Positions 9,867 to 64,000 of a stretch of DNA of 64,000 bases are shown piece by piece. This DNA comes from Variovorax paradoxus EPS (GTDB lineage Bacteria; Pseudomonadota; Gammaproteobacteria; Burkholderiales; Burkholderiaceae_C). Below the pieces are notes generated by a model. The model made no database searches. It had not been told where the DNA came from and saw only the letters and a list, made by a program, of their open reading frames with translations. How positions within the stretch are numbered: position 1 is the first letter of the stretch; each line of letters opens with the position of its first letter. Position numbers and translations under genes: made by a program. The stretch is from positions 1,178,001 to 1,242,000 of the forward strand of contig NC_014931.1 of the NCBI RefSeq assembly GCF_000184745.1, written 5' to 3'.

Positions 9867-9882
9867 CCGGGAAAACACAAGC

Positions 9883-11319: not shown

Positions 11320-11326
11320 TATCGCA

Positions 11327-11430
11327 TTGCGTTCGAAAAGACGAATCCGTTCACGCTGAGCTTGTCGAAGCGCCGCGTGAGGCTTCGATCCTTCGACAAG
11401 CTCAGGACAGGCCAAGCTCAGCCCGAACGG
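11327..11430. repeat. REP-like palindromic element (CTGAGCTTGTCGAAGC family), copy 1
   Basis: TTGCGTTCGAAAAGAC, then CCGTTCACGCTGAGCTTGTC and its inverted partner CTTCGACAAGCTCAGGAC, with a further partial arm CAAGCTCAGCCCGAACGG. The same element, including the TTCGAAAAGAC flank, is found inverted at 51717-51800. Both are intergenic, between a stop and the next gene. This CTTCGACAAGCTCAG core is widely dispersed in GC-rich proteobacterial genomes. Confidence 0.8.
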
Positions 11431-11481
11431 TTCTCGTTGATCAAACGCGAGGTCGTATGCGAGGTCGTATGAACGGCTGCC

Positions 11482-11964
11482 TCAGCCCAGCGGCACCGCG
11501 GGTTCGAACTTGGCGCGCTTGAGGCTGAAGAACGCCTTCACGTTGCGCACGTTGGCATCGGCCGTGAACAGGCGCTGGGTCAGCGCGCCGTAGTCCGGCA
11601 TGTCGCGCGCCGCGACCACCAGCACGAAGTCGGGGCCGGGCGAGACGCGCCAGCACTGCTGCACCGCGTCGTCGGCGATCACGCGGGTTTCGAAGGCGTC
11701 GAGCGCGGCGGCGTCCTGCCGGTCCAGCGAAATCTCGACCACCGCCTGCAGTCCGTGGCCCAGCACCGCGGCCAGCCGGTCGGGCGAGAGCAGTGCGACC
11801 TGGCGCTCGATGAGGCCTTCGTCCTTCAGCCGCTGAACCCGTCGGAGGCACGTGGGCGGGGAGATGCCCACGTCGGCGGCGAGGCGCTGGTTGGTCTGCG
11901 AGGCGTCGCGCTGCAGCGCTTCGAGCAGCCGGAGGTCTACTGCATCGAGGGAGATTGATTCCAT
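11482..11964 (-). CDS. Lrp/AsnC-family transcriptional regulator
   Basis: 160 residues: N-terminal HTH (LDAVDLRLLEALQRDASQTN, ISPPTCLRRVQRLKDEGLIE) and C-terminal RAM/ACT-like ligand domain (VVEISLDRQ, CWRVSPGPDFVLVVAARD). The ATG at 11964 is used; the open frame extends to a TTG at 11994 that adds ten unlikely residues. It is divergent from glmS across an unusually AT-rich 138-base gap and may control glmS or itself. The effector is unknown; the family typically senses amino acids. Confidence 0.88.
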   Translation of the reverse strand: MESISLDAVDLRLLEALQRDASQTNQRLAADVGISPPTCLRRVQRLKDEGLIERQVALLSPDRLAAVLGHGLQAVVEISLDRQDAAALDAFETRVIADDAVQQCWRVSPGPDFVLVVAARDMPDYGALTQRLFTADANVRNVKAFFSLKRAKFEPAVPLG

Positions 11965-39805: not shown

Positions 39806-40960
39806 ATGGAGATCAATTTGACACGCTACGTGTACCTGATGGGGTGGAGCGCTGCCCTGGCCGGCGCGATGTTGCTCCAGGGCTGTGCGCCGGGCTTCGG
39901 CAGGATGGCCGCTTCCGAGCCCGACCTCGGCCCGGCGCCCGCCCTGTCCGCGGACGGCTCGCCCGAAGGCGCGCTCACGCCGATTTCGCCGTCGCTCATC
40001 CGCGCGATGGCCGATGCGCAACCGACCGCGGTGCCGGCCGACGTGAAGGCGCTGTTCGGCGAGGCCGCCCCGTACACCATCGGGCCGGGCGATGTCGTGG
40101 GCGTCATCGTCTACGACCACCCCGAGCTGCTCCCGAACGCCGGCGCCGTCATTTCCCAGCAGGTCGATCCGACCGGCATCAGCGTGGCGCCGGGCTTCAT
40201 CGTCGGCGCCAACGGGGAGATCAGCTTTCCCTACATCGGCCGCGTGAAGATGCAGGGGCTCACCGAAATCGAGGCCTCCGACCTCATCACCAAGCGCATC
40301 GCGCGCTACATCAAGGAGCCGCAGGTCACGGTGCGCATCCAGTCGTTCCGCAGCCGCCGCGCGTTCGTCGAAGGCGAGGTGCGCTCGCCGGGGCTGCAGA
40401 TCTTCACCGACGTGCCGATGACGCTGGCCGAAGCGCTCAACCGCGCCGGCGGCATCACGCCCAACGGCGACCGCTCGTTCGTCACGCTCACGCGCGGCGA
40501 CCGCACCACGCTCATCGACCTCACGCGCCTGCAGGACCTGGGCAGCGGCGCCGGCAGCATTCCGCTGCAGAACGGCGACGTGGTGCTGGTGCGCAACCGC
40601 GACGAGAACAAGGTGGTGGTGATGGGCGAGGTGCTGCGGCCTTCGGCGCTGCTCATGCACAACGGGCGCCTGAGCCTGAACGAAGCGCTCGGCGAAGCCG
40701 GCAGCGCGAGCCTGGGCACCGCGAACACGGGGCAGATCTACGTCGTGCGCAACACCGCCAAGGGCACGCCGGCCGTGTTCCACCTGAATGCGAAGAACCC
40801 CGCCGCGCTCGCGCTGGCCGATCGCTTTCCGCTGCAGCCGCGCGACGTCGTCTACATCGACTCGGTGCCGCTCGTGAGCTGGAACCGCGTGGCCAGCCTG
40901 ATCCTGCCGGCCGCCCAGGTGCTGGACATCGGCGACCGCGTCTACATGAACCACCGATGA
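39806..40960 (+). CDS. wza: Polysaccharide export outer-membrane lipoprotein (Wza-like)
   Basis: Forms the outer-membrane export channel for capsule/exopolysaccharide. 384 residues: lipoprotein signal with lipobox LLQGC (Cys27), Poly_export domain (about 90-190: YTIGPGDVVGVIVYDHPEL, ANGEISFPYIGRVKMQGLT), then two SLBB domains (RAFVEGEVRSPGLQIFTDVPMTLAEALNRAGG, and KVVVMGEVLRPSALLM). A C-terminal helix LILPAAQVLDIGDRVYMNHR is plausible for the Wza pore. The stop overlaps the next start by 4 bases (ATGA). First gene of the cluster. Confidence 0.93.
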   Translation: MEINLTRYVYLMGWSAALAGAMLLQGCAPGFGRMAASEPDLGPAPALSADGSPEGALTPISPSLIRAMADAQPTAVPADVKALFGEAAPYTIGPGDVVGVIVYDHPELLPNAGAVISQQVDPTGISVAPGFIVGANGEISFPYIGRVKMQGLTEIEASDLITKRIARYIKEPQVTVRIQSFRSRRAFVEGEVRSPGLQIFTDVPMTLAEALNRAGGITPNGDRSFVTLTRGDRTTLIDLTRLQDLGSGAGSIPLQNGDVVLVRNRDENKVVVMGEVLRPSALLMHNGRLSLNEALGEAGSASLGTANTGQIYVVRNTAKGTPAVFHLNAKNPAALALADRFPLQPRDVVYIDSVPLVSWNRVASLILPAAQVLDIGDRVYMNHR

Positions 40961-41412
40961 AATCCGTGCTCACTGTCTGCATCGGCAACATCTGCCGAAG
41001 CCCGATGGCGGAAGGCCTGCTCGCGGCGGGCCTGCCGCACCTGCGCGTGGTGTCCGCGGGCACCGGCGCGCTCATCGGCCAGCCGGCCGACGCGACCGCG
41101 CAGAAGCTCATGCGGGCGCGCGGCATCGACATCTCGGGCCACGTCGCGCAGCAGGTGAGCCAACTCCTGTGCCGCCAGGCCGACCTGATTCTGGTGATGG
41201 ACCTCGCGCAGCGCCGCCACCTCGAGTCGACCTACCCCTTCGTGCGCGGCAAGGTGTTCCGCATTGCCGACACGCTGGCGCAAGACGTGCCCGATCCCTA
41301 TCGCCAAGGCGAAGCCGCATTCACCGATGCGCTGGCGCTCATCGAGGCCGGCGCCCGCTCGTGGATCGAGCGCGTCCTGAAGATCACAAAACCCGAGCAT
41401 CAACTCACATGA
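40957..41412 (+). CDS. wzb: Low-molecular-weight protein-tyrosine phosphatase (Wzb-like)
   Basis: 151-residue cytosolic phosphatase that dephosphorylates the tyrosine autokinase Wzc to let polymer export cycle. The P-loop CIGNICRS gives nucleophile Cys8 and Arg14 (CX5R-S), and the general acid lies in VPDPYR. The length is standard. It overlaps both neighbours by 4 bases (ATGA), so the wza-wzb-wzc trio is translationally coupled. Confidence 0.94.
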   Translation: MKSVLTVCIGNICRSPMAEGLLAAGLPHLRVVSAGTGALIGQPADATAQKLMRARGIDISGHVAQQVSQLLCRQADLILVMDLAQRRHLESTYPFVRGKVFRIADTLAQDVPDPYRQGEAAFTDALALIEAGARSWIERVLKITKPEHQLT

Positions 41413-43670
41413 ATGCATCCACGCAAGCCGCCCCGCCGATGCAAGCGCCCGACGACGAAAGCGAAGGCATCAATCCCGCGGAGTACTGGGACATCCTGGT
41501 CGACAACCGCTGGCTCGTCGCAGCCGTGGTGGCCGTTTTCCTGTTCCTCGGCACGGCCTACGCGCTGCTGGGCAAGCCGGTCTACGAAGCCAACCTCGCG
41601 GTGCAGGTGGAAGACTCGGGCAACTCCGCCGGCAGCTTTCTCGGCGATGCGGCCTCGTCGCTCCTGAGCGTGAAGACGCCGGCCGCGGGCGAGATCGAAA
41701 TCCTGCGTTCGCGCGCCATCCTGGGCAAGGCGGTGGAGAACACCAAGCTCTACATCAGCGCGCGCCCGCGCTACGCGCCCTTCGTGGGCAGCTACCTCGC
41801 GCGCCGCGCCACCGATCTTTCGGAGCCGGGCTTCATGGGGCTCGCGGGCTACGTCACCGGCACCGAGAAGATCCTCGTGCCGCGCTTCGACGTGCCGCCC
41901 GATTTCGAAGACAAGCCCTTCACGCTGACCGTCGGCACCAACGGCCAGTACGAGCTGAGCAGCCCCGACATCGACACGCCGATGAAAGGCACCGTCGGCA
42001 CGCTGCTCTCGGCGAACGTGCCGAATGTCGTGAACGGCAGCGTGAGCCTGATGGTCACCAGCATCGAAGGCAAGCCGGGCGCGCAGTTCCAGCTCGTGCG
42101 CTCGTCCACGCAGAAGACGCTGCTCGCGCTGCAGGATGCGCTGAAGGTCGTCGAAAAGGGCAAGCAGTCGGGCGTGCTCGACGTGAGCTGGAAGAGCGCC
42201 GATCCCGAGAAGCTCACGCAGCTGCTCAACGAGATCGGCACGCTCTACGTGCGCCAGAACATGGAGCGCAAGGCCGCCGAGGCCGAGAAGACGCTGGGCT
42301 TCCTCGACACCGCGCTGCCGCAGTTCAAGAAGCAGCTCGAGCAGTCCGAAGACACCTACAACCGCTACCGCAACCAGAACGGCACGGTGAGCCTGGACGA
42401 CGAAGCCAAGAACGCGCTCACGCAAACCGTCGACCTGCAATCCAAGCTGCTCGAAGCCGAGCAGAAGCGGCGCGAGCTCGCCGCGCGTTTCACCGACGAG
42501 CACCCCGCGGTGCAGACGCTCGACACCCAGGTCGTCGCATGGAAGGCGGCGCTGGCCAGCATCGATGCGCGCATCCGCAAGATGCCCGAGTTGCAGCAGA
42601 ACACCGTGCGCATGCAGCGCGACATCAAGGTCAACACCGACCTGTACGTGTCGCTGCTCAACAGCTCGCTGCAGATGCGGCTGGCCAAGGAAGGCAAGGT
42701 CGGCAACGTGCGCCTGCTCGACGAGGCCATCGTTCCCGAAGAGGCGGTGTGGCCCAAGCGCCCGCTGGTCATTGCGCTCGCGCTCATCCTCGGGCTCGCC
42801 GCGGGCGTGGCGGCCGCGGTGGCGCGCAGTTCGTTCTTCGGCGGCATCCGCAACCCGGGCGAGATCGAGACCCACACCGGGCTCAACGTCTACAGCAGCA
42901 TTCCGCTGAGCGCGGCACAGCGCGCGATCGACCGGAGCATCGAGAACAAGGCGGCCGGCCTGCACGTGCTCGCGCACCAGCAGCCCGAAGACCCGGCGGT
43001 CGAGAGCCTCCGGAGCCTGCGCACCGCGCTGCAGTTCGCGATGCTGGAAGCGACCAACAACCGCCTGCTCATTTCCGGTGCAACGCCCGGTGTAGGCAAA
43101 ACGTTTATTTCGGTCAATTTCGCGGCCATTTCCGCCGCCGCCGGAAAAAGAGTTCTTTTGATTGACGCGGATTTGCGAAAAGGCCGGGTCAATCAATTCC
43201 TGTCGATTCCCCGTTCTTCGGGATTGTCGGAATTGATCGCAGGGACCCTCAGTTTTGAAAAGGCGGTGCGCCCGTCGGTGCTGCCGAACCTGGACATCAT
43301 CACCACCGGCGTGCTGCCGCCCAATCCGGCCGAATTGCTGATGAGCGAATCCTTCGTGCAGGTGCTGGACAGGCTCTCGCCCGCTTATGACCTGGTGATC
43401 ATCGACACGGCACCCGTGCTCGTGGCCGCCGATACCGCCTCGGTGGCGCCGCTGGCAAGCACCTTCCTTCTGGTCGCGCGGGCCGAAAAAACCCAGCTCG
43501 GCGAATTGAATGAAAGCGTCCGGCGCCTCGCGCATGCCGGTCGATCGGTAAATGGCGTAATTCTGAATGCTATTGACCTATCGCGCCGCCATGCGGGCAG
43601 TGGGGGCTATAAGTATGGCGCTTACAAGCATTTACAATACACATACAAAGCCAACAGGGATTCCACCTAG
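41409..43670 (+). CDS. wzc: Polysaccharide co-polymerase / tyrosine autokinase (Wzc-like)
   Basis: 753-residue inner-membrane protein controlling chain length and export. Wzz domain with two helices (about 33-52 VVAVVAVFLFLGTAYALL, and about 451-473 PLVIALALILGLAAGVAAAVA) flanks a large periplasmic coiled-coil part (RKAAEAEKTLGFLDTALPQFKKQ). The cytoplasmic BY-kinase has Walker A PGVGKT (Lys564), Walker A' LLIDADLRKG and Walker B LVIIDTAPVL, with a Tyr-rich tail (YKYGAYKHLQYTYK) for autophosphorylation. Bases 43090-43260, around Walker A, use distinctly AT-richer codons than the rest of the gene. Confidence 0.94.
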   Translation: MNASTQAAPPMQAPDDESEGINPAEYWDILVDNRWLVAAVVAVFLFLGTAYALLGKPVYEANLAVQVEDSGNSAGSFLGDAASSLLSVKTPAAGEIEILRSRAILGKAVENTKLYISARPRYAPFVGSYLARRATDLSEPGFMGLAGYVTGTEKILVPRFDVPPDFEDKPFTLTVGTNGQYELSSPDIDTPMKGTVGTLLSANVPNVVNGSVSLMVTSIEGKPGAQFQLVRSSTQKTLLALQDALKVVEKGKQSGVLDVSWKSADPEKLTQLLNEIGTLYVRQNMERKAAEAEKTLGFLDTALPQFKKQLEQSEDTYNRYRNQNGTVSLDDEAKNALTQTVDLQSKLLEAEQKRRELAARFTDEHPAVQTLDTQVVAWKAALASIDARIRKMPELQQNTVRMQRDIKVNTDLYVSLLNSSLQMRLAKEGKVGNVRLLDEAIVPEEAVWPKRPLVIALALILGLAAGVAAAVARSSFFGGIRNPGEIETHTGLNVYSSIPLSAAQRAIDRSIENKAAGLHVLAHQQPEDPAVESLRSLRTALQFAMLEATNNRLLISGATPGVGKTFISVNFAAISAAAGKRVLLIDADLRKGRVNQFLSIPRSSGLSELIAGTLSFEKAVRPSVLPNLDIITTGVLPPNPAELLMSESFVQVLDRLSPAYDLVIIDTAPVLVAADTASVAPLASTFLLVARAEKTQLGELNESVRRLAHAGRSVNGVILNAIDLSRRHAGSGGYKYGAYKHLQYTYKANRDST

Positions 43671-44000
43671 ACCGTGAAAAATTGGAGTTAAATTCATCTT
43701 GATGCGCTTGACATTCAGGCAGTCGCATTGAGTTCATACTCAATTTGTATTCAGTCAAAACTTATGTAGTACCAATGAGCAGCAGTTCATTTTTACTACT
43801 TCTATCGAGTCCGTTGACCGCGCAATAGTTTTTGCACTGCAGAAGCTACGGGGCATTTGCGCGGGTTCTGTCGGCCAAAAAAATCAAGGGCCATAACCGA
43901 AGAGATGCGGGCGTTTTGCCCGCATGTGGAAAGGTGCGTCGCCAATGAAATACCTTGCTAAAGAAATTCTTTCGCGTTTCACCTCTGGATGGAGAAAACC
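43671..44000 (+). other. AT-rich intergenic region between wzc and sugar transferase
   Basis: 330 bases without a gene. TTGACA at 43708-43713 could be a -35 element but no good -10 stands at 17 bases. A perfect hairpin is near the 3' end (listed separately). Composition is much less GC-rich than the flanking genes, continuing into the transferase and polymerase genes. Confidence 0.5.
43905..43925 (+). terminator. Perfect hairpin inside the exopolysaccharide operon
   Basis: ATGCGGGC-GTTTT-GCCCGCAT: eight perfect pairs with a five-base loop, 75 bases before the sugar transferase start. No T-run follows on either strand, so it is more likely an RNA processing or stability element than a full terminator; it could uncouple wza-wzb-wzc from the downstream genes. 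Confidence 0.45.
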
Positions 44001-44726
44001 ATGAGAAACCTCCGACCCGAAGAATCGATGGTCCCGCAAGGTTGGGACAATTCGGAACATTCGCACAGCCAATCGCCCTATGACATCGGGCAAAACCGGG
44101 TGAATCATCCGGCCCTGCTTCGAATTGGAAAAAGATCGGTGGACATTACCGCCGCGCTTTTCTTTTTCCTCGCATTCGGCTGGGTGTTCGTATTGATCGG
44201 CCTTTGCGTCATGATCAGCTCCGGCGCGCCCGTCTTCTATTCGCAGCCGCGCTATGGAAAAGACGGGCGGGTGTTCCGCTTCTGGAAATTCCGCTCGATG
44301 ACCGCCAATTCGGCGCAGGTGCTCGAAGAGCATCTGAAAAACAATCCGGAAGCGCGCCGGCAATGGGACGAATACCAGAAGCTGGAAAACGATCCGCGGA
44401 TCACGCCTTTCGGCAAATTCATCCGCAAGACCAGCCTCGATGAATTGCCGCAATTCTGGAACGTGCTCATCGGGGAGATGAGCCTCATCGGCCCGCGCCC
44501 CTGCATGCTCGAGCAGAAGGCGCTGTACGGCCACGACTGGGTCCACTACTGCGCCGTGCGCCCGGGCATCACGGGCCTTTGGCAAGTGAGTGGCCGCAAT
44601 CAGCTCACCTACAACGCACGCGTCGCATTGGACGTGAGGTATGTCGAGACGCTTTCCGTCACGAAAGACGTCGATATCTTCCTCCGGACGATATGGGTGG
44701 TCGCAGTCGGGCACGGGTCGCGGTGA
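44001..44726 (+). CDS. Initiating sugar transferase (undecaprenyl-phosphate glycosylphosphotransferase)
   Basis: Transfers the first sugar-1-phosphate to undecaprenyl phosphate at the inner membrane. 241 residues: one N-terminal hydrophobic helix (ITAALFFFLAFGWVFVLIGL), then the bacterial sugar transferase domain with GAPVFYSQPRYGKDGRVF, FWKFRSMT, KTSLDELPQFWNVL (catalytic Asp-Glu) and MSLIGPRP. It lacks the extra four N-terminal helices of WbaP, so it is a short PssY/PglC-like form. ATG 44001 is preferred over 43989 because GGAG lies 6 bases before it. Confidence 0.92.
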   Translation: MRNLRPEESMVPQGWDNSEHSHSQSPYDIGQNRVNHPALLRIGKRSVDITAALFFFLAFGWVFVLIGLCVMISSGAPVFYSQPRYGKDGRVFRFWKFRSMTANSAQVLEEHLKNNPEARRQWDEYQKLENDPRITPFGKFIRKTSLDELPQFWNVLIGEMSLIGPRPCMLEQKALYGHDWVHYCAVRPGITGLWQVSGRNQLTYNARVALDVRYVETLSVTKDVDIFLRTIWVVAVGHGSR

Positions 44727-45802
44727 GCCACGCCATTCAGCAGGGATATCCAGCCACGACGACAAAAAGAACAAAAAAGAATTCGGGGCGCGTCAACCCG
44801 TATTCGATTGCCGGGATTTCGATCGTGTTCATCTACACGGTCATCTACTTCTATTTTCGGGATTTGCTTCCCGATAAATGGAGCGTCGATTCGGCAAAGA
44901 TCATCGAGATCCTGAATTACGGCGGCGCGGGCGGTGATCTGGACAATTCGTTCGCCGTCACCGCGGCATTGTTCGGCCTCATCGGCGTGGACAACCTGGA
45001 TGTCTTTACCTGCAGCGTGAGCGCGCTGTTCCTGCTGTTTGCGACCCACGATATTCGCCGGGCCGGCGATTTTTTTACGCGATTGCTCCTGATTGCGCCG
45101 TGCATCATGCTCAACATGTTTGCGCCGTCGAAAGAAACGGTGGTGCTCATCATGACGATGTTCATCACCGTGTCGGCGATCTATTTCCGCACTTCGAAGA
45201 GATACACCTTCATTTCTTTTCTGTTCCTGTATGCGGTCTATGGCGTATTCGTTCGTCAATATTATTTGCTGATCGTCGGTGTGTTCTTTTTGGTCTACTG
45301 GCTCTGGCGGCGGCCGCTTAAATACCACGTGCTGGCGGCCATTGTGGCGGCCGGTGCAATCATGGCAGCGCCATCCAGTGTATTGCAGACGTTGCAATCG
45401 CCAAGAGATACATCCAACGCCTATGCGGAGCAAATCGGCAGCGACAACCGGACGGCCTTTACCAATATCGCGTCGCCGGCCACCGGCCCGGGGTTTTTGG
45501 TCAATTACGCCTATGCCGGCACGGTATTGATTACGCCGGTACTGTATTTCCAGACGGCCAGTGATTTCTTCATGCAATTGATGATCGGCGCGATGCTGGT
45601 CATTCTTTACCGGGCCCGAAAGAAAGCCCGGCGCGGGCATGACCGCTACGAAACCAGATTCTTCGCCAGCCTTTTCATTGCCCACATCCTGGTGCAATTG
45701 ATATTCGAACCCGATCTCGGAAGCTTTACCCGCCATTTGACCTCGGTGCTGCTCTATCTCATTGCCATCAAGGTTGCCGAGAGAAAACAATTCCTCAGAT
45801 GA
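44723..45802 (+). CDS. Polytopic membrane protein, probable polysaccharide polymerase (Wzy/EpsG-like)
   Basis: 359 residues with roughly nine to ten hydrophobic segments (ISIVFIYTVIYFYF, VSALFLLFATHDI, LLLIAPCIMLNMFAP, FISFLFLYAVYGVFV, HVLAAIVAAGAIMAA) and a long periplasmic loop containing PRDTSNAYAEQIGSDNRTAF. Wzy polymerases are poorly conserved, so the call is from topology and position between the initiating transferase and the pyruvyl transferase. The GTG at 44723 overlaps the previous stop by 4 bases (GTGA); an ATG at 44693 is the alternative. Low-GC codon use suggests transfer. Confidence 0.65.
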   Translation: MSHAIQQGYPATTTKRTKKNSGRVNPYSIAGISIVFIYTVIYFYFRDLLPDKWSVDSAKIIEILNYGGAGGDLDNSFAVTAALFGLIGVDNLDVFTCSVSALFLLFATHDIRRAGDFFTRLLLIAPCIMLNMFAPSKETVVLIMTMFITVSAIYFRTSKRYTFISFLFLYAVYGVFVRQYYLLIVGVFFLVYWLWRRPLKYHVLAAIVAAGAIMAAPSSVLQTLQSPRDTSNAYAEQIGSDNRTAFTNIASPATGPGFLVNYAYAGTVLITPVLYFQTASDFFMQLMIGAMLVILYRARKKARRGHDRYETRFFASLFIAHILVQLIFEPDLGSFTRHLTSVLLYLIAIKVAERKQFLR

Positions 45803-46962
45803 AAAAAATCCTGATTTGCGCCGTGCCATTCAGCGACAACCTCGGCGATGGGGTCATTGCCGCGTCGCTGGCGCACATTGCCGGCCTCAAATACCCGGAC
45901 GCCACAGTCGAATTCCTCGACATTGCCGGGCGCCACGGATTCGACGAGCAAAACCTGCGCGGCGGCGGCGCATTCGGCGTTTTCCAGAAGCTGCCGGCGC
46001 TGCTGCGCTCGGCCATCGTGTTTGCGTATTGCCTCAAGAACTACTTCCAGCGCTGGCGCCCGCACTGGAAGGCGGCCGTGAGCGATGCCGACCTTGTCAT
46101 CGTCGGCGGCGGCCAGCTCTTCTGCGACGTGGCGCTCAACTTCCCGGCCAAGCTCTTCCTCTTGAGCCGGCTCCTCCGCGGCAAGCGGGTGGCGGTGGTG
46201 TCTGTCGGCGTCACGGCCAAGTGGTCGTACTGGGGCAAGGTGCTCGTGGGCAAGTTCTTCAAGAACGCCGCGCCCGTGTTCTTCGCGACCCGCGATGCGG
46301 AGTCGGCGAAGAACCTGCACGACATCTTTCGCATTCCCCGGCCCGACATCCGCGTGGTGCCCGACCCGGCGCTGGTCTGCGAGAGCGCGTTCTCCAGCGA
46401 GCTTTCGCCCGACAAGAAATGGGACGTGGGCATCTGCGTGAGCAGCCTCGATGCGCTGGTCATGAATTCGGAGTACGGCGAATCGAACGCCATCGGCTCG
46501 GCGGATTTCTTCGCGAACCTCGCCGAGGCGCTGCAGCAGGAGGGCGCGCGCGTTCTCTACTTCACGAACGGCGCGGCCGAAGACAACCGCGTGATGGCCG
46601 AGATCTCGTCGCGCCCGGCCAGTGCGAGCGCGAACGCCGCGGACACCACTTTTCTCGTGCCCAAGCGCCCGGACGATCTGGTCGCGCTCATCAGCGCGTG
46701 CTCGTGCATCGCGGCGCACCGGTTGCACGCAAATATCGTGGCCTACAGCCTGAACATTCCCTCGGTGGGGATGAACTGGGACAAGAAGGTCGAATCGTTC
46801 TTCCGCCTCACCGGCCGCACGCAGTACCTGTTCGACCTGTCGCCGCGCCCGGACCAGCTCAAGGCCTCGGTGCTGCAGCTGCTGCGCGAGAAGAACGCCG
46901 ACCGCGAACGGCTCGACGTGCTGCAGGGCGAAGTCATCGCCGGCACGCACGCGCTGATCTGA
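45799..46962 (+). CDS. Polysaccharide pyruvyl transferase family protein
   Basis: 387 residues of the PS_pyruv_trans family, which adds ketal-linked pyruvate from PEP to sugars of exopolysaccharides and gives the polymer negative charge. N-terminal FSDNLGDGVIAASLAHIAG is the conserved N-x-G-D element, and ADLVIVGGGQLFCD (GGG), VSVGVTAKWSYWGK and SCIAAHRLHANIVAYSLNIPSVGMNWDKK (conserved His-Arg-x-His) follow. The start overlaps the polymerase stop by 4 bases. Confidence 0.88.
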   Translation: MKKILICAVPFSDNLGDGVIAASLAHIAGLKYPDATVEFLDIAGRHGFDEQNLRGGGAFGVFQKLPALLRSAIVFAYCLKNYFQRWRPHWKAAVSDADLVIVGGGQLFCDVALNFPAKLFLLSRLLRGKRVAVVSVGVTAKWSYWGKVLVGKFFKNAAPVFFATRDAESAKNLHDIFRIPRPDIRVVPDPALVCESAFSSELSPDKKWDVGICVSSLDALVMNSEYGESNAIGSADFFANLAEALQQEGARVLYFTNGAAEDNRVMAEISSRPASASANAADTTFLVPKRPDDLVALISACSCIAAHRLHANIVAYSLNIPSVGMNWDKKVESFFRLTGRTQYLFDLSPRPDQLKASVLQLLREKNADRERLDVLQGEVIAGTHALI

Positions 46963-46985
46963 CCGACCGCGGAGCGCGCCTCACC

Positions 46986-48056
46986 ATGAAAGTACTGCAC
47001 GTTGCCGAGACGCTCAAGGGCGGGCTGGAGACGTATCTCCGCACCGTCGCGCGCCACCAGACCACGTCGCCCGACATCAGCCAGGTGAAGTTCGTGCTGC
47101 CGGGGCAGGTCGACTGGCTGGGCGCGGAGAACACCCACGTCGTGCCGACCGCGCGCAAGGCCTCGGCGCTGCTCGGGTATGCGAAGAGCGTGCGCAAGAT
47201 CATCGCGGCGGAGCGGCCGGCGATTCTTCATCTGCACAGCTCGATTGCCGGTGGTGTGGTGCGCGCCATGGCGCTCGCCGGGCAGGTGCCGCTCGGCGTG
47301 AAGATCGTCTATTGCTCGCACGGCTGGGCATTCGACCAGACCGGCCCCGCGTACAAGAACATCGCCTACCGCTGGATCGAGCGGCTGCTCTCCTGGCGCA
47401 GCGACGCGATCATCTGCATCAGCAAGCACGAGATCCGCATCGCCGAGAAATTCGGCATCCTGCGCTGCCGGTGCATTCCGAACGGCATCGACCGCATCGA
47501 GCAATCGATGGTGCAGCAGAGCGCGCCGGCGAGCGGCATCGAGCCACGCAAGGTGCTCTTCGTCGGCCGGCTCGACAAGCAGAAAGGCATCGACGCGCTG
47601 CTCGATGCCTACGCAAGGGTGCGGCCGAACTTCAAGCTCATCGTGGTCGGCGATTCCGTGCGCAAGGACCTGCAGCTCGCGCAGCCCGAGCACGTGGAGT
47701 TCAAGGGCTGGCTCGAGAAAGACGCGCTCGATGCCGTCTACCGCGCCTCTGACGCCACGATCGTTCCGTCGCGGTGGGAAGGCTTCGGCCTCGTCGCGGT
47801 GGAAGCCATGGCGCGCGGCAAGCCCGTGTTCGCCTCGGCCGTCGGCGGCCTTGTCGACATCGTGGAGCACGGTACCAGCGGCCGGCTCTTTTCCCTCGAC
47901 CAGATGGACCAGGCGCTGCGCGACATCGATGGCCTCTCCGACGCGGCCCTGCAGCAGATGGGGCAGGCCGGGCGGCGGATCTTCGAGGAGAAGTTCACCT
48001 CGCAGCGCATGAACACGGCCATCGTCAACCTGTACAAGGAGTCGGTTCTCCGATGA
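46986..48056 (+). CDS. Glycosyltransferase family 4
   Basis: 356-residue GT-B glycosyltransferase. N-terminal acceptor domain MKVLHVAETLKGGLETYL; C-terminal donor domain with VLFVGRLDKQKGIDALLDAY, VPSRWEGFGLVAVEAMARGKPVFAS (the E-x7-E nucleotide-sugar motif) and GGLVDIVEHGTSGRLF. It is the only glycosyltransferase besides the initiating enzyme in the cluster, so the repeat unit may be small or other transferases may act from elsewhere. Gap of 23 bases from the pyruvyl transferase; 4-base overlap with the next gene. Confidence 0.92.
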   Translation: MKVLHVAETLKGGLETYLRTVARHQTTSPDISQVKFVLPGQVDWLGAENTHVVPTARKASALLGYAKSVRKIIAAERPAILHLHSSIAGGVVRAMALAGQVPLGVKIVYCSHGWAFDQTGPAYKNIAYRWIERLLSWRSDAIICISKHEIRIAEKFGILRCRCIPNGIDRIEQSMVQQSAPASGIEPRKVLFVGRLDKQKGIDALLDAYARVRPNFKLIVVGDSVRKDLQLAQPEHVEFKGWLEKDALDAVYRASDATIVPSRWEGFGLVAVEAMARGKPVFASAVGGLVDIVEHGTSGRLFSLDQMDQALRDIDGLSDAALQQMGQAGRRIFEEKFTSQRMNTAIVNLYKESVLR

Positions 48057-49318
48057 AGATTTTTTCCTGCCGCGCCCGACGTTTCCTGCAGGTCCTTGCG
48101 TTGCTGAGCGTGTGGATGTTCGCTGGACATGCCGCGCAAGCCCGGGGCGTGAGCGGCATCGACACGGACTACCCGGTCGCGCTGAGCGTGCAGATCGACC
48201 CCGCCACCATCACCGACGCCGACCTCAATGAGATCCGCGCGGCCGGTTTCGAGTTCGTGCGCTTCGGCGTGCGCCCGCCGCTCAAGAGCGTGAACCCCGG
48301 CCTCATCGACTACTCGCGCCTCATCAAGCGCGTGCGCAACGCCAAGCTCGACGCGATCGTGACGCTGTTCGGCGGCAACGCAATCTGGGGCGCGAAGCCC
48401 GAAGAGCTGCGCGCGGGCGCCCGCAAGGAGAGCCTGTTCTCCGATTTCGCGGTCGGCTTCATGAAGGCGCACACCGACGACGTGGCCGTGTGGGAAGTGT
48501 GGAACGAGCCCGACCACAAGACCTTTTTGAACCCCGCGATGCTGTCGGATTTCGAAGCCGCATCGTCGGAGCTCTGCGCCAACATGGCCAAACAGAAGGT
48601 GCAGCCGAACATCGTCGTCGGCTTCGGTTTCGCGAACCTGCCGTTCGTGGGCGGCAAGGTGCCAAGGCAGTTGGAGAACGCCTTCGTCGCGGCCGCCAAG
48701 TCCGATTGCCTGACCGACATTTCGATCCACCCGTACCGACCGGTGCCCGAGACCGCCTTCGGCGACTACGAAAAGCTGCGCGCGCAGCTCGACCAGCGGC
48801 AACTGCAGAAGACCGGCATCGCCATTTCCGAATGGGGCTACGCCTCGTACCTGCCGGTGCGCAGCCAGAGCACGCAGGCCTCGCTGGTGTTTCGCGAATA
48901 CCTCATCAACGCGGCAGCCGGCATCAAGCTGCTGAACCTCTACGCCTGGCGCGACCGCGGCCGCTCGTCGTTCTCGAAGGAAGACAACTTCGGGATCATG
49001 TCGAACGCGGGCGAAAAGAAAGAGGCGTTCTCCGCGCTCACCGAATTCCTGAAGATCGCCAGGCACTCGAAGAAAGTCTCGTACGACGACGCGAAGGGCG
49101 TGAACCAGTTGGTGCTCAAGCGCAGCGACGCGCTGCTGCACGTGCTGTGGACACCCGGCTCCGAAAAAGACGTGACCGTCCCCGTCGCCGAAGGCAAGAA
49201 GTGCACGCGCGTCGACTTCTTCCCAGAGATGCGCCGCGGCAGCTGCGGGCCCCGCGCGGGCGGCGGGTTCTCCGCGAAGGCCTCGGCCTATCCCGTGCTG
49301 CTGTCGATCTCGGACTAG
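48053..49318 (+). CDS. Secreted glycoside hydrolase, PslG/GH39-like
   Basis: 421 residues with a Sec signal peptide (FLQVLALLSVWMFAGHAAQA) and a clan-A TIM barrel. IRAAGFEFVRFGVRPPLK begins the barrel; WEVWNEPD provides acid/base Glu152, and ISEWGY provides nucleophile Glu260. A C-terminal beta-sandwich-like part (QLVLKRSDALLHVLWTPG) follows. Such periplasmic hydrolases in Wzx/Wzy or Psl clusters trim the polymer or clear mislocalised chains. Family assignment GH39 versus GH5 cannot be settled by eye. Confidence 0.82.
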   Translation: MKIFSCRARRFLQVLALLSVWMFAGHAAQARGVSGIDTDYPVALSVQIDPATITDADLNEIRAAGFEFVRFGVRPPLKSVNPGLIDYSRLIKRVRNAKLDAIVTLFGGNAIWGAKPEELRAGARKESLFSDFAVGFMKAHTDDVAVWEVWNEPDHKTFLNPAMLSDFEAASSELCANMAKQKVQPNIVVGFGFANLPFVGGKVPRQLENAFVAAAKSDCLTDISIHPYRPVPETAFGDYEKLRAQLDQRQLQKTGIAISEWGYASYLPVRSQSTQASLVFREYLINAAAGIKLLNLYAWRDRGRSSFSKEDNFGIMSNAGEKKEAFSALTEFLKIARHSKKVSYDDAKGVNQLVLKRSDALLHVLWTPGSEKDVTVPVAEGKKCTRVDFFPEMRRGSCGPRAGGGFSAKASAYPVLLSISD

Positions 49319-49323
49319 ACGCG

Positions 49324-50550
49324 ATGGCGCGTCTTTCAGGTATCAGGAAACGTCTCGGCGGCCCGGTCTTCGCGATTGCCGACCAGTGCATCTACAGCGC
49401 GAGCCAGCTGTTGCTGAGCTTTGCGCTCGCGCGCGTGCTGTCGCCTTCGGAGTTCGGCATCGCCTCCGCATTCCTGGCGGTCGTGAGCTTCCAGTACATC
49501 CTGCACACGGCGATGGTGCACGAGCCCTTGCTGATCCGGCGCTTCTATGTGAGCCGGTCCGCGGCATGGACGAGCTGGGGGCTCGTCGCTCTCTTCTCGC
49601 TCGTGGGTTACCTGTGCTGGCAGCTCATCGTGTTTCCCGGGCAACTGCGCTGGGTGGGCGTGGCGCTCATCGTCGGCTACGAGATCTTCTGGCTCTCGCG
49701 CAGCCTGCTGCTCACCGGGCGGCGCTACGCGATGCTGTGCATCACCGGCGTGCTGATCTGCGCGGGGTATGTCGCGGTGCTCGGTGTCGAAAAGCCCGCG
49801 ACATGGGGCGAGGCGCTGCTGCTGGTCTCGGCGTTGCAGTTGCCTTTCCTGATCCTGGTGCTGCTGAACCTGCGCAACGTCATGCCCGCATTGCCCGCTG
49901 CAAAAGATGCGCAAGGCCTCACCGTGAAGGAATCGATGGCCTACGGCTGGAAGGCCAGCCTCTCGCAGTTCATGAGCTGGATCATGACGGGCGGCGCCAT
50001 CCTGCTCCTGGGCTCGTCGGCCGATTCGGAGCAGGGCGGCCTGCTCAAGATCTACATCACCTTCTTGCTGCCGATGCAGTACGTGCTCGCGGCGCTGGGC
50101 TACTACCTGCTGCCGCAACTGGCGGCCCGCTGGCATGCCGAAGACCGCAGGAGCGTGCACCGGCTCTTCGTGATGTTCGTGCTGATGGGGTTCCTCATCG
50201 CCGAACTCGCCGGCGTGGTGCTGGGCCTGCTCGGGCCGCACCTCGTGGTGCTGGCCTTCGGCGAGAACTACCGGCACATGGATTTCTCGCCCTTCTATTA
50301 CGCGCCGGCCATCTTCGGTCTCACCATGTGTTTGCGCACGGGCTTCCGTGCCGCGGCGCAGCCGGGCGCGCTGTTGTTCTGCTCGGTCGTGGGGGCGGTG
50401 GTGTTCGGCATCGCGATGCTCGCGGCCAAAGCCCCGGTCTCGTACATCCAGACCATCCACGCGATGACGCTGGGCTTTGCCTGCATGGCCGCGCTGATGA
50501 TCGGCTGGCTGTTCGTGTTCATGCGGGCGCCGAGGCTGCAGGGCGCCTGA
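49324..50550 (+). CDS. Oligosaccharide flippase (Wzx-like)
   Basis: 408 residues, about eleven to twelve predicted helices, with the polysaccharide-biosynthesis/MOP N-terminal element QCIYSASQLLLSFALARVLSPSEFGIAS and mid-region YGWKASLSQFMSWIMTGGAILLLGS. It would flip the undecaprenyl-linked repeat unit across the inner membrane. It starts 5 bases after the hydrolase stop. Together with the upstream polymerase it defines a Wzx/Wzy-type pathway. Confidence 0.85.
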   Translation: MARLSGIRKRLGGPVFAIADQCIYSASQLLLSFALARVLSPSEFGIASAFLAVVSFQYILHTAMVHEPLLIRRFYVSRSAAWTSWGLVALFSLVGYLCWQLIVFPGQLRWVGVALIVGYEIFWLSRSLLLTGRRYAMLCITGVLICAGYVAVLGVEKPATWGEALLLVSALQLPFLILVLLNLRNVMPALPAAKDAQGLTVKESMAYGWKASLSQFMSWIMTGGAILLLGSSADSEQGGLLKIYITFLLPMQYVLAALGYYLLPQLAARWHAEDRRSVHRLFVMFVLMGFLIAELAGVVLGLLGPHLVVLAFGENYRHMDFSPFYYAPAIFGLTMCLRTGFRAAAQPGALLFCSVVGAVVFGIAMLAAKAPVSYIQTIHAMTLGFACMAALMIGWLFVFMRAPRLQGA

Positions 50551-59086: not shown

Positions 59087-62000
59087 ATGACGCACGAACC
59101 GAACTCTCTCTCCGATCTGTTGAACCGTGCCAGGCTTGCCCTGGCGGATGCCGAGGGCGCATTGCCCCCCGCATCGCCCGCCACCGCGGAGGCCGGATGC
59201 GTGGTGTTCTTCGCCATGGGCGAAGGCGAGAGCCGGGCCCGTGTGGTGTCCGGACGCGGACCTGACATCGAGGCCGCATGGACGCGGGGCGCCGATGCGG
59301 CGGCCGTTCAGGCCAGGCGCGGCGACCGGCCTTTCGAGCGCCTGCGCGCGGAGATCGTCGATACGGTCACGGCCATGAGCTGGGGGGAGTTGAAGGCGAA
59401 GCTGGCGCAAACCAAGCGCAACTACTTCAACCTCGGCATCGCCTTCGACGCGCACTTCAAGCACGCGATGCTCGCGCAGGAGATGCAGGGCGCGGCGGTG
59501 CTCTACAGCGGCGAGGTCGAGCACGCACTGCCCAACCTCGCGAACCTGCGGCTGCACGCCAAGCGCCGCTTCGGCACGGAGATCGACTTTCCCTCTGACG
59601 ACACCGCGCCGGTCTGGTGCTTCACCACCCGCGCGGTGTATGTCGATGCCCAGGGCGCCTGGCCGATCACCGCCGAAGGCCAGGCCGCAGGCTTTCGCCG
59701 GCTGGACGACTGGAACGCGCGGCAGGTGCGCACCCTGATCGATTCGGCAAGCGACTACCTCGCCGAACAGGTCAAGCCCACGGGCGAATTCCACTACGGC
59801 TGGTTCCCCTGCTTCGACCGCGCCATTCCCACCTACAACACCCTGCGCCACGCCAGCACCACCTACGCGATGCTCGAAGCCTGGGAGCTCACGCGCAGCG
59901 CCACGCAGAAGGCGGCCATCGACCGCTCGCTGGGCATCCTCACGCAGAAGCTGATCCGGCAGGTGCCGCTGCCCGACGGCGCGCGGGCGGCGCTGCTGGT
60001 GGACGTGGGCAACGAGGTCAAGCTCGGCGGCAACGCGGTCTGCCTGCTTGCGCTGGTGAAGTACACCGAGCTCACCGGCGACCGGCAGTACATGACGCTG
60101 ATGGAGCAGTTGGCTCTCGGCATCCGCGCCATGCAGGACACGAAGACCGGGCGCTTCGTCCACGTGCTCAACTTTCCCAAGCTCGACATCAAGGATGCGT
60201 TCCGCGTCATTTATTACGACGGCGAGGCCGCGTTCGGGCTGATGCGCCTCTACGGGCTCACGCGCGACGAGCGCTGGCTCGCGGTGGTCGAAAAAGCCTT
60301 CGACCATTTCATCGCGGCCAAGCACTGGCAGGCGCACGACCACTGGCTGAGCTACTGCGTCAACGAGCTCACGCGCTACAGGCCCGAGACGCGCTACTAC
60401 CAGTTCGGCTTGCAGAACGTGGCCGGGTACCTGGACTTCGTGCTGGAGCGCATCACCACCTTCCCGACGCTGCTCGAACTGATGATGGCGGCGCGCGAGA
60501 TGGTGCTGCGCATCGATGCCGACCCGGCGCTGCGCCCGCTGCTCGACGGCCTGGACCGCGAGAAGTTCGACCGCGCGCTGGAGCACCGCGCGCGGTATCT
60601 GGCCAACGGCCACTTCTGGCCCGAGCTGGCGATGTTCTTTCGCAATCCGGACCGCATCGCGGGCTCGTTCTTCATCAAGCACCACAGCTTTCGGGTGCGC
60701 ATCGACGATGTGGAGCACTACCTCTCGGGCTACGTCGCGTACCACCGGATGCTGCGCAACCGCGAGGCGCAGCAGGCCGAAGCCGGCGCCGCGGAGACGG
60801 GCGCCGCACCGGGCCCGCGCGGCCCGAGCGGCGTGGTGGCCTGGGGCGGCGACGTGAACCTCGGCCGGCGCCAGCACTACCGGATGGCCGAGCTGGGCGG
60901 ACCGCAGGCGATGCTCGGCAACATCGCCGCGCTGCGCGATGCGGACCTGCGCATCGTCAACCTCGAATGCGTGGTCGCGACCACCGGCGAGCAGGGCGCC
61001 GACAAGGACGAGACCGGCGCTTATTACTACCGCGCGCGGCCCGAGATGATCGACGTGCTGACGGCCGCGCGCATCGACCTCGTGAGCACCGCCAACAACC
61101 ACAGCGGCGACTACGGCCCGCAGGCCCTGCTGGAACAGAAGACGCTGCTGGACGCCGCGGGCATCGGCTCGGCGGGCACCGGGCCCGACCTCGAGGCCGC
61201 GCTGCAGCCGGTGATGGCCCTTGCCGGCGAGGTGCGGGTGGCGCTGTTCTCGCTCGATGCCACGCAGCCGAAATTCGCGGCGACCGCCTGGCATCCGGGC
61301 GGCGCCTACCTGCCGTTGAGCGACCCCGCCGAATGGACCGCGACGCTCGCGCCGCGCATCGCCCGGGCGCGGTCGCACGCCGACGTGGTGCTGGTGGCGG
61401 TGCACTGGGGCGACAACCTGGAGACCGTGCCCTCGCGCGCCGAGGTCGCGGTGGGCCACGCGATCATCGATGCGGGTGCCGACGCCATCCTCGGCACCTC
61501 GGCGCATGTGCTGCAGGGCATCGAGGTCTATCGCGGGCGGCCGATCATCCATGACGCGGGCGACCTGCTGTTCGATGCGATGCGCGGCGATGCGTGGAAC
61601 GCGGGCGTCTTCTCGCTCACGCTCCATGCGCATGGCGTCGAGCGGGTGCAGTTCACGCCCATCCGCGTCGATTTCGGCTTCTCCGAACAATACGAAGGCG
61701 ACCGTGCGCGCGCCGCGAGCGAGCACTTCGCCGCCCAATGCCGCGCGCTGGGCACGCAGGTCTTTCCGACGCCCGAGGGTGGCTGCGTGCTGCACCTGGC
61801 GCCGCCTGTGCGGGAGGTGCTGCCGCAACAACCGCTGCAACCAGCGACGGCCGATGCGGCGGTGGCTCGCCCAGCCTCGCCGCCCCTGCGCACCGCAAGA
61901 CCCGGCTGGGTCGTCGATGCCGTGCCCGCGGATGCGGCCATGGCGCCGCTGAAGATCGGGCCGCTGCGCCTCGTGGGCATGCGCTGCATGCCCAACCAGG

Positions 62001-63865
62001 TCTTCGGCCGGCAACTGCTGTGGGTCGAGTCGTTCTGGACGGTCGATGCGCCCGTCGAGGCCGACCTGCGGCTGCAGTTCCGTGCGCTGCCCGTGCGCAG
62101 CAAGACCATGCCGGCGTGGGGCGACGGCATGGACCACGACCCCTGCGACTGGATGTGGCCGACCAGCCGCTGGACGCCCGGGCGCATCTACCGCGACCGC
62201 TACGGCCTGCGGCCGCCGCTCACGCGCCAGATGGAAAGCGACGTGCTGCAGCTCGAAGTGCGCCTGCGCGGCGCACCCGAGCTGCCCGCGGCGCGGCGGC
62301 TTCCCGTGTGGTGCGGTCTGCGCATGCCCGGCGTGCCGGCGCCGCTGCCCGAGACCCGCGCGCCGGTGCTGTCGGTCAACCTGCCGGGCGCGAGCCGCGA
62401 CCCGGGGCCCGTGTGGACGGCCGATCAGCTCGCGCAGATCACCGGCGGGCAGTGGCTGGTGCCGCCGCCCGCGGGCTGGTCGGTGCAGTCGGTGGTGCGC
62501 CTTCCGATGCACCTGAAGGTGCGGCCGGGGCCGGCGCTGTTCGTCGCATCGGACTACCGCACGCTGGCCGCGCACGAGAACTTCAGCCACGCGCCGGAAG
62601 ACTGGGACCAGCACGACGACCTGCCGCGCCTGCACACCCAGTGCGCGGGCGCGATCGTGCAGCACGCGGTCGAAGGGCTGCCGCCGGACTTTCCGCTGCT
62701 GCAGGTGCCCGACCCGATCCGTGCGCTGCTCTCGCTCGGCGCCGCCGCGCGGGCGCGCTACAAGGGGCTGGTGGTGGGCGTCACCGGCACGGTGGGCAAG
62801 TCGTCCACCATCGCCATGGTGCGCGACCTGCTGCCGCCGGGCGCGCGCGTGCTCACCACGGTGGAGAACAACAACTCGCGCGTCGGTGTGCCCGGCGCCA
62901 TGGCGAGCCTCGGGCCCGACGTGGACGTGTGCATCCTCGAGATGGCGCAGAGCGCGCTGTGGATGGACCGCGGACCGATCTCGCTGGAGGCGCGCCCGCA
63001 TGTGGCGATCCTCACCGAGGTCGGGCTCTCGCAGACCGCCAAGACCAACACGCTGGAGAAGACGGCCGAGTACAAGTCGCGCGCCTTCCTCGGGCTGGAG
63101 CCGGGCGGCATCGCCGTCGTGAGCGGGCACATTCCCCACCTTGCGAAGGTCGTGAAGGCCGCGATGCGCACGGCCGCGAAGGTGTGGACCGTGGGCACCG
63201 GGCCGGGCGACAACATCCGCCTGCTCGATGCGCGCCCCGAATCCTCGGGCTGCCGCGTGCGGCTCTCGTTCAAGGGGCGCATCCACGAATATCTGTTTCC
63301 GGTCGCGAGCATCGGGCTGGTGCGCAACTCGGCGCTGGCCTTCGCCGCGATCGTGGCGATGGGCTTCGATGCCGAGGAAGCCAGCGCGCGCATGCCCAAT
63401 GTGCGGCTGCCCGCCTCGGTGATGCAGGTGGAGCCGCTGCGCACCCGCAGCGGCGCGCTGGTCACGCTGGTCGACGACAGCTGGAACGCCGAGGTCATGT
63501 CGATGCGCAACGCGATGAGCTTCGTGCGCAGCTACCGCGCGCCGTCCGGCAACGCGCCGGTCGCACGCAAGGTCGGCGTGCTCGGGCGCATCGTGAACCT
63601 GGGCGAGCAGGCCGAGGCGATGCACCGCGGGCTGGCCGAGCCGCTGCTGGCCTCGGGCATCGCGCACCTGGTGACGCACGGCGACGAGATGCGCTGGCTG
63701 CGCGAAGAGGTGCCCACCAGCCTGCTCGGCCCGCATTTCGACAACGCGGCCGAGCTGACCCTGTACCTCGGCGAGTACCTGCGCGACGGCGACCTGCTGC
63801 TGGTGAAGGGCGACCGCGACCGCTCGGATTTCGGCACCATTCCCTCGCTGTTGAAGAAGCTGTGA
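59087..63865 (+). CDS. 1592-residue fusion: alpha/alpha-barrel region + CapA-type phosphatase + Mur ligase
   Basis: No signal peptide or membrane helix is visible. Residues 1-225 are unrecognised (YFNLGIAFDAHFKHAM). About 225-570 looks like a six-hairpin/alpha-toroid repeat region (EFHYGWFPCFDRAIPTYNTL, RHASTTYAMLEAWE). About 582-895 is a PgsA/CapA calcineurin-like fold with GGDVNLGRR (Asp589), NLECVV (Glu627), TANNHSGDYG (His672), VHWGD (His773) and GTSAHVLQG (His807). About 920-1090 is probably beta-rich. About 1200-1592 is a Mur-ligase fold with GVTGTVGKSST (Lys1238), TVENNNSRVGVPGAM and LTEVGLSQTAKTNTLEKTAEYKSR. In poly-gamma-glutamate systems CapB/PgsB (Mur-like) and CapA/PgsA are separate, with CapA outside the membrane; here both are joined and apparently cytoplasmic. 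Product unknown. Confidence 0.85.
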   Translation: MTHEPNSLSDLLNRARLALADAEGALPPASPATAEAGCVVFFAMGEGESRARVVSGRGPDIEAAWTRGADAAAVQARRGDRPFERLRAEIVDTVTAMSWGELKAKLAQTKRNYFNLGIAFDAHFKHAMLAQEMQGAAVLYSGEVEHALPNLANLRLHAKRRFGTEIDFPSDDTAPVWCFTTRAVYVDAQGAWPITAEGQAAGFRRLDDWNARQVRTLIDSASDYLAEQVKPTGEFHYGWFPCFDRAIPTYNTLRHASTTYAMLEAWELTRSATQKAAIDRSLGILTQKLIRQVPLPDGARAALLVDVGNEVKLGGNAVCLLALVKYTELTGDRQYMTLMEQLALGIRAMQDTKTGRFVHVLNFPKLDIKDAFRVIYYDGEAAFGLMRLYGLTRDERWLAVVEKAFDHFIAAKHWQAHDHWLSYCVNELTRYRPETRYYQFGLQNVAGYLDFVLERITTFPTLLELMMAAREMVLRIDADPALRPLLDGLDREKFDRALEHRARYLANGHFWPELAMFFRNPDRIAGSFFIKHHSFRVRIDDVEHYLSGYVAYHRMLRNREAQQAEAGAAETGAAPGPRGPSGVVAWGGDVNLGRRQHYRMAELGGPQAMLGNIAALRDADLRIVNLECVVATTGEQGADKDETGAYYYRARPEMIDVLTAARIDLVSTANNHSGDYGPQALLEQKTLLDAAGIGSAGTGPDLEAALQPVMALAGEVRVALFSLDATQPKFAATAWHPGGAYLPLSDPAEWTATLAPRIARARSHADVVLVAVHWGDNLETVPSRAEVAVGHAIIDAGADAILGTSAHVLQGIEVYRGRPIIHDAGDLLFDAMRGDAWNAGVFSLTLHAHGVERVQFTPIRVDFGFSEQYEGDRARAASEHFAAQCRALGTQVFPTPEGGCVLHLAPPVREVLPQQPLQPATADAAVARPASPPLRTARPGWVVDAVPADAAMAPLKIGPLRLVGMRCMPNQVFGRQLLWVESFWTVDAPVEADLRLQFRALPVRSKTMPAWGDGMDHDPCDWMWPTSRWTPGRIYRDRYGLRPPLTRQMESDVLQLEVRLRGAPELPAARRLPVWCGLRMPGVPAPLPETRAPVLSVNLPGASRDPGPVWTADQLAQITGGQWLVPPPAGWSVQSVVRLPMHLKVRPGPALFVASDYRTLAAHENFSHAPEDWDQHDDLPRLHTQCAGAIVQHAVEGLPPDFPLLQVPDPIRALLSLGAAARARYKGLVVGVTGTVGKSSTIAMVRDLLPPGARVLTTVENNNSRVGVPGAMASLGPDVDVCILEMAQSALWMDRGPISLEARPHVAILTEVGLSQTAKTNTLEKTAEYKSRAFLGLEPGGIAVVSGHIPHLAKVVKAAMRTAAKVWTVGTGPGDNIRLLDARPESSGCRVRLSFKGRIHEYLFPVASIGLVRNSALAFAAIVAMGFDAEEASARMPNVRLPASVMQVEPLRTRSGALVTLVDDSWNAEVMSMRNAMSFVRSYRAPSGNAPVARKVGVLGRIVNLGEQAEAMHRGLAEPLLASGIAHLVTHGDEMRWLREEVPTSLLGPHFDNAAELTLYLGEYLRDGDLLLVKGDRDRSDFGTIPSLLKKL

Positions 63866-64000
63866 CCACGCTGCCTTTCATGCCTGCCCTCTGGCGACAT
63901 CGGCGCCTCGCATTCGTGCTGATCGCGTTGATGCAGGCCGCCTGTGCGCAGCGCGCCGGTGCCGATCTGCGCGCGCCGGGCACACCGACTGCACGCGCGA
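63862..64000 (+). CDS. Partial gene: probable lipoprotein or exported protein following the fusion
   Basis: GTG at 63862 overlaps the fusion stop by 4 bases (GTGA); ATG at 63880 is an in-frame alternative. It encodes WRHRRLAFVLIALMQAACAQ, a signal sequence ending in an AAC or CAQ context: a weak lipobox (QAAC) or ordinary signal peptidase site. About 46 codons are present, then the window ends. The overlap implies co-translation with the fusion protein and a shared task. Identity not determinable. Confidence 0.6.
   Translation, partial: MTTLPFMPALWRHRRLAFVLIALMQAACAQRAGADLRAPGTPTARA

Follow-up and report, generated by a model that had tools for sequence, protein, structure and literature searches.

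We propose that the 1592-residue protein encoded in the window (the whole 64,000-nucleotide stretch of DNA that was analysed) represents the T-CapA-Mur architecture within a widespread and probably cytoplasmic family that modifies surface adhesins bearing Asp-X runs, mostly (Asp-Ala)n. We hold this reading with moderate confidence. The protein joins a T module, a CapA domain and a MurF-like ligase with their conserved motifs, and the family is associated with Asp-X adhesins and secretion genes. A sequence-only reading had taken the protein for a candidate polymer-synthesis enzyme, which is not the best reading: relatives with several different architectures adjoin type I secretion genes and adhesins bearing long Asp-Ala or Asp-Ser runs, so the substrate is more probably a protein made on ribosomes.

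The locus encodes a single polypeptide, as that reading had claimed. The gene caller, whose training set included this gene, also calls the 59087-63865 frame, and relatives among the matches listed span the full length at 95% down to 47% identity. Pfam placed PGA_cap at residues 584-830, Mur_ligase_M at 1232-1421 and Mur_ligase_C at 1459-1576. The proposed combination of CapA, Mur ligase and alpha/alpha barrel was confirmed by the agreement of Pfam, NCBIfam, structure models and fold search. Structure prediction and structure search, suggested earlier as a check, recovered the barrel, the CapA domain and the MurF-like ligase; the Foldseek rows cover T residues 208-563 and, for a second model, mainly the ligase and CapA. 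The residues singled out from the sequence (Asp589, Glu627, His672, His773, His807 and Lys1238) are all present and invariant in 33/33 aligned relatives. In the beta-rich linker, an MDHDPCDW motif is strongly conserved in the alignment of relatives. A PHROGs search gave no match.

Features of the fusion locus (window positions)
Feature	Coordinates	Strand	Basis or remark
Fusion gene: T + CapA + beta-rich linker + MurF-like ligase	59087..63865	+	1592 aa, single frame
T module, N-terminal alpha/beta part (residues 1-205)	59087..59701	+	structure model
T barrel (residues 208-563), cellobiose 2-epimerase-like (alpha/alpha)6	59708..60775	+	structure model + fold search
CapA (PGA_cap) domain, residues 584-830	60836..61576	+	Pfam + structure model + fold search
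Beta-rich domain separating CapA and ligase (residues 951-1079)	61937..62323	+	structure model + conservation
MurF-like ligase, residues about 1105-1592	62399..63862	+	NCBIfam + alignment + fold search
P-loop GVTGTVGKSST including K1238	62777..62809	+	sequence + alignment of relatives
Downstream alpha/beta hydrolase gene, start	63862..64000, continuing outside the window to L025:1352	+	GTG overlaps the fusion gene's stop

The predicted model and fold search assigned the T barrel to the AGE/cellobiose 2-epimerase superfamily. These epimerases use a catalytic His pair; H255 and H544 of T, candidate counterparts judged from the sequence alignment, are invariant in 42/42 sequences, and so are the polar residues R254, E380, D418, E427, R538 and D540. 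The T profile found one match among PDB sequences (E 0.1) and the Listeria T profile found 0. Searched alone, the T region gave 751 matches among 7,997 scored candidates (120 listed); many of those listed are about 555 aa, and some are named 'Mur ligase' though they have no listed Pfam domain. T is found by itself or combined with CapA, Mur, ATP-grasp or glycosyltransferase domains, the last two in a few of the listed matches. One Agrobacterium protein fuses T to CphA-like ATP-grasp domains, and an SdgB-like domain is fused to T in Klebsiella aerogenes; a glycosyltransferase domain is present in the T relatives L121 and L160 (GT4 in L160), and T-GT4 occurs in 3 of 5,426 genomes. A Pseudomonas T protein (P0226), itself giving no Pfam match at E 0.01, carries a fused domain that shares 57% identity with a small protein encoded near a T-only gene of the window's genome. 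This small protein weakly matches an aspartyl/asparaginyl hydroxylase model (23.9 vs a cut-off of 22.6 bits). Such a hydroxylase-like partner, a lead only, would fit Asp as the target.

The ligase scores nearest to the MurF models of NCBIfam, at 170 of 544 bits and 169 of 288.6 bits against the curated cut-offs, and the MurF fold, P-loop, conserved Lys and ligase motifs are all present. Judged from sequence, the fusion is plausibly a soluble ligase. The PgsB/CapB model, which we take to be part of the NCBIfam library, was absent among the 12 matches (E <=1) of the window protein. CapC/PgsC (PF14102), earlier reported missing from the vicinity of the gene, had 0 matches across the whole genome, while the B. 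subtilis positive control was detected. Pfam found neither an ATP-grasp domain nor a glycosyltransferase domain (GT-B, SdgA/SdgB type) in the window protein. A second Mur-ligase-like locus in the window's genome (1088273-1089454, 27% identical) is presumably the usual MurF. The CapA domain matches PF09587 (CapA/PgsA) at E 2.4e-58, and the nearest solved structure found for it is the lasso-peptide epimerase MslH, although the window protein reaches only 83 of the 700 bits of the MslH model cut-off. Among the key residues of MslH named in the part of the source available to us (D11, E44, N87, H88, D91, H259, H261 and H295; PMC10406935), 7/8 are kept and H261 corresponds to G775; these equivalences were read from the alignment except D11=D589, which was set by motif and model range.

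The fusion had been regarded as a marked change of plan. That claim was too strong: the fusion forms a common family, with 791 homologs at E <=1e-3 in a scored set of 7,988 candidates (120 listed). The earlier proviso that it might be a common family with an assigned product therefore held for the first half only: it is common, and Pfam and NCBIfam matches and the literature search assigned no product to it. Most of the listed homologs that have a name are called 'CapA family protein' or 'UDP-N-acetylmuramyl pentapeptide synthase'; 'Mur ligase' is also used. Fusion carriers include Variovorax, Microbulbifer and others, and some homologs carry extra ATP-grasp and acylphosphatase domains. T was carried by 14/398 genomes of a phylum sample and 18/240 genomes of a two-family sample. 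One 2391-aa relative (L082:10004-17179) combines the fusion with an acylphosphatase, a VanY-type carboxypeptidase and a second Mur ligase. An older study reportedly analysed amidoligase gene neighbourhoods. Our literature search, with most subscription papers outside it, found no work that connects Asp-Ala adhesins with CapA or with a Mur ligase, and no experiment on the system. The component parts are of known kinds, and the system as such was not found described in that search, in Pfam or in NCBIfam names.

Gene neighbourhoods were compared in 75 loci from named genomes, taken from the best 80 matches of 233 kept (41 non-Variovorax and 34 Variovorax); genes were called by a custom script in 70/75 and then clustered. 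Type I secretion genes lie beside the family in 20/41 non-Variovorax loci. BapA-type adhesins and LapG- and LapD-like proteins also recur as neighbours, as do ATP-grasp/acylphosphatase proteins, which in Microbulbifer lie near the fusion. Gene order on plasmids is similar: in Agrobacterium, adhesin, TolC, ABC and HlyD genes precede T-Mur or T-ATP-grasp and then an alpha/beta hydrolase; in Nitratireductor, a repeat protein, TolC, ABC and HlyD precede T and a MurF-like gene; and in Klebsiella aerogenes, 'clumping factor' pieces, TolC, ABC and HlyD precede T-glycosyltransferase. In Listeria, the T gene lies directly 3' of the LPXTG protein Lmo1799, without a ligase. In Staphylococcus plasmids, T directly follows an SdrD-/Rib-like protein or an unlisted run-bearing frame, with a Mur ligase gene next; the annotated Mur of the S. 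lugdunensis plasmid consists of short pieces only. On a Staphylococcus simulans plasmid (L197:2254-12618), an adhesin with a run of 602 Asp-Ala/Asp-Ser dipeptides, T and a Mur ligase follow one another in the same direction. At L168:5853-10738, a T-only gene comes immediately after an autotransporter whose 89 Asp-X dipeptides are nearly all Asp-Gly; here the association extends to a third export route and to a third kind of X. At L166:4199-10934, a T-Mur type protein adjoins nucleotidyltransferase-like and aminotransferase-like genes (labelled by eye), which might indicate that another group is attached.

The association with Asp-X runs was counted, a run being at least 10 consecutive D[ASVGT] dipeptides in any frame. 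Among loci fetched by name, runs were found at 18/41 non-Variovorax vs 0/34 Variovorax T loci. The phylum sample of 398 genomes gave 4/12, two of its 14 carriers, from the window's genus, being left out. The two-family sample gave 11/17 further loci; it was centred on two genomes with run-bearing T loci, and those two loci belong to the count of the phylum sample and are excluded from the 17. Plasmid loci, hand-picked for reading from 54 records, gave 9/9. In one comparison, 43/91 T loci had a run vs 0/43 random 20-kb controls, the 91 excluding 21 of the 34 Variovorax loci. The controls were picked by position in 8 and 9 related genomes (0/26 and 0/17), and 951,902 bases including the window also contained 0 runs. 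When the threshold was lowered to 6 dipeptides, the contrast was 11/17 T loci vs 1/43 controls. Besides Variovorax, 14 named genera showed a run: Celeribacter, Microbulbifer, Roseobacter, Roseovarius, Sphingobium, Wenzhouxiangella, Xylophilus, Zobellella, Klebsiella, Agrobacterium, Sulfitobacter, Listeria, Staphylococcus and Nitratireductor. Within the window's genus, 37 genomes were compared, and the adhesin N-terminus was present in 17/20 with T and 0/17 without T; the three T genomes lacking it are drafts of 240 to 1,310 contigs. All these counts are of loci, not independent events: the 91 include close strains (e.g. L111/L112) and at least one locus counted twice (L067 = L163, the same genes, neither with a run), and Fisher values are a guide only, loci and genomes being related. 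About half of the T loci had no run in the DNA read. Codons vary inside the four runs in which they were counted; therefore, these are not simple DNA repeats.

The type of repeat follows the partner enzyme. An SdgB-like GT4 match lies within 3.5 kb of T in 7 of the 43 T loci with a run, and 6/7 are Ser-majority (the exception is L199); GT4 is fused to T in both loci examined by Pfam. The remaining 36 are Ala-majority in 34/36, with the exceptions L125 (Ser-majority) and L168 (Asp-Gly). A T-GT4 locus on an E. coli plasmid, found later, also has long Asp-Ser runs. There (L233:1-4074), the annotated genes are 'hypothetical proteins', and the other strand holds a frame at least 2,326 codons long, with one Asp-Ser run of 864 residues and another of 206; the adhesin thus seems to have been overlooked in the annotation. 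A Ser side chain can take a sugar and an Ala side chain takes nothing; therefore, Asp is the only modifiable side chain in Asp-Ala runs. The substrates of Mur ligases and ATP-grasp enzymes are carboxylates. In the parts of two papers available to us, the Mur-like domain of cyanophycin synthetase attaches Arg to Asp side chains (PMC9262961), and SdgB binds and glycosylates Ser-Asp repeats (PMC8561734). Taken as a whole, these points support a division of labour in which T handles Asp-X tracts and the partner enzyme writes on them.

The window's own locus carries no Asp-X run, in the window or in adjoining L025. The genome encodes three adhesins with Asp-Ala runs elsewhere, and the substrate of the window fusion could be one of these or something else. 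Two other T genes are present, T-only at 2.026 Mb and T-Mur at 5.618 Mb. The T-Mur copy is the one that adjoins an exporter: its neighbours are ABC, HlyD, OmpA-like and outer-membrane secretion-like genes (the last by eye), and beside it a 1369-aa protein has an 81-dipeptide Asp-X run, of which 80 are Asp-Ala. In the region of the T-only gene (L026:2166-9784, about 2.02 Mb), a nucleotidyltransferase and an APH-type kinase are encoded along with the aspartyl-hydroxylase-like protein. The hydrolase downstream of the fusion has a signal-like N-terminus (by eye), and a relative of it lies near the family in 10/41 non-Variovorax and 26/34 Variovorax loci (genes called in 70/75). About 22 kb downstream of the fusion, an ATP-grasp query matches two adjacent genes (L120:6943-9510 and 9549-11840, both on the minus strand), which from their N-termini and size we take to look like cyanophycin synthetase (CphA). 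A link to this pair was rejected; many unrelated genes lie between, and there is no operon. Within the window, positions 39806-50550 hold a gene run that, from its N-termini, we presume to resemble an exopolysaccharide export and glycosyltransferase locus.

From these data we infer the adhesin as substrate, Asp as the residue on which the ligase would act, an attached group, and candidate roles for T and CapA. T would engage the alternating-Asp run of a newly made adhesin in the cytoplasm, as the genomic association suggests. The MurF-like domain, with ATP, may then activate Asp side-chain carboxylates, to judge from the kind of ligase and of repeat, and by analogy with the action of the CphA Mur-like domain on poly-Asp it would form amide bonds to an amino acid or another amine. 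The CapA domain, whose modelled metal site resembles that of MslH, might edit or epimerise, a speculation from its fold. The adhesin would leave the cell afterwards, usually via type I secretion, in keeping with the neighbours of relatives.

Alternatively, T proteins may be chaperones or export factors that hold acidic Asp-X runs, with the fused enzymes acting on small molecules or being accessory. T alone suffices beside Lmo1799, and in many loci HlyD/ABC genes are close to T; however, T also accompanies LPXTG-anchored and autotransporter substrates and is thus not bound to one exporter, the barrel has many polar residues invariant in 42/42, and a pure chaperone would not explain why repeat type tracks the partner enzyme. 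We consider this explanation unlikely. That the fusion makes a separate peptide, poly-amino acid or glycopeptide, capsule-like and exported or attached beside the adhesin, with adhesin and enzyme being neighbours since both would contribute to the biofilm matrix, seems to us about as unlikely. It would suit the variants with CphA-like ATP-grasp and acylphosphatase domains and the separation of the Variovorax fusion from the adhesins found, and CapA and a Mur-like ligase do belong to poly-gamma-glutamate systems, but CapC is absent from the genome, and T-SdgB-like fusions lie beside Asp-Ser adhesins, where SdgB is described in the part of the source available to us as targeting the protein repeat itself (PMC8561734). 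Free poly-gamma-glutamate synthesis was rejected as the main reading, given the lack of CapC and the adhesin context. A divergent MurF/CapA enzyme of peptidoglycan type with a cell-wall role is very improbable, and peptidoglycan MurF was rejected, since scores fall far under the curated cut-offs, another Mur-ligase-like locus exists, and the family is patchy (14/398 genomes), unlike cell-wall genes.

Taken together, modification of the adhesins by the T-CapA-Mur family can be placed, tentatively and with somewhat less confidence, in a general system by which ribosomally made (Asp-Ala)n and (Asp-Ser)n stretches of giant adhesins would become, while still in the cytoplasm, glycans or branched polyamides of the cyanophycin kind. 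It would use one repeat-reading T and exchangeable writers (Mur ligase, ATP-grasp, glycosyltransferase and possibly Asp hydroxylase), in Gram-negative and Gram-positive bacteria and independently of the export route. If a Mur ligase does decorate the Asp side chains of these tracts, this would be an unusual protein modification; it would help to explain the upkeep of long runs of a single acidic dipeptide, and a large family now only called 'CapA family protein' or 'Mur ligase' would gain a function.

Modification of repeat adhesins is already a known kind of system, to which the proposed one may belong; modification of Asp-Ala was not found reported in our literature search. BapA of Paracoccus denitrificans is an adhesin of the same kind as those adjacent to T, and represents the proposed type of substrate, not the enzyme. 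According to the part of the source available to us, it has 891 Asp-Ala repeats, is type I secreted and is needed for biofilm; its gel size exceeds its true mass, for which the authors suspected its unusual composition, mentioning a post-translational modification only as a possibility (PMC5588039). The CapA domain differs from MslH at the position of H261 and in scoring far under its model cut-off. PgsBCA/CapBCA shares a CapA domain and a Mur-type ligase with the window protein, whose ligase is instead MurF-like and fused to CapA in a genome without CapC. CphA1 uses a Mur-like domain to form isopeptide bonds on the Asp side chains of poly-Asp, and relatives of the window protein share the ATP-grasp link; in contrast, the window protein lacks ATP-grasp and its proposed backbone is ribosomal. 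SdgA/SdgB of Staphylococcus likewise have long Asp-X dipeptide repeats in surface adhesins as their targets, but these are Ser-Asp repeats, whereas the adhesins of the window protein's relatives are mostly Asp-Ala and the window protein has a Mur ligase and CapA in place of a glycosyltransferase.
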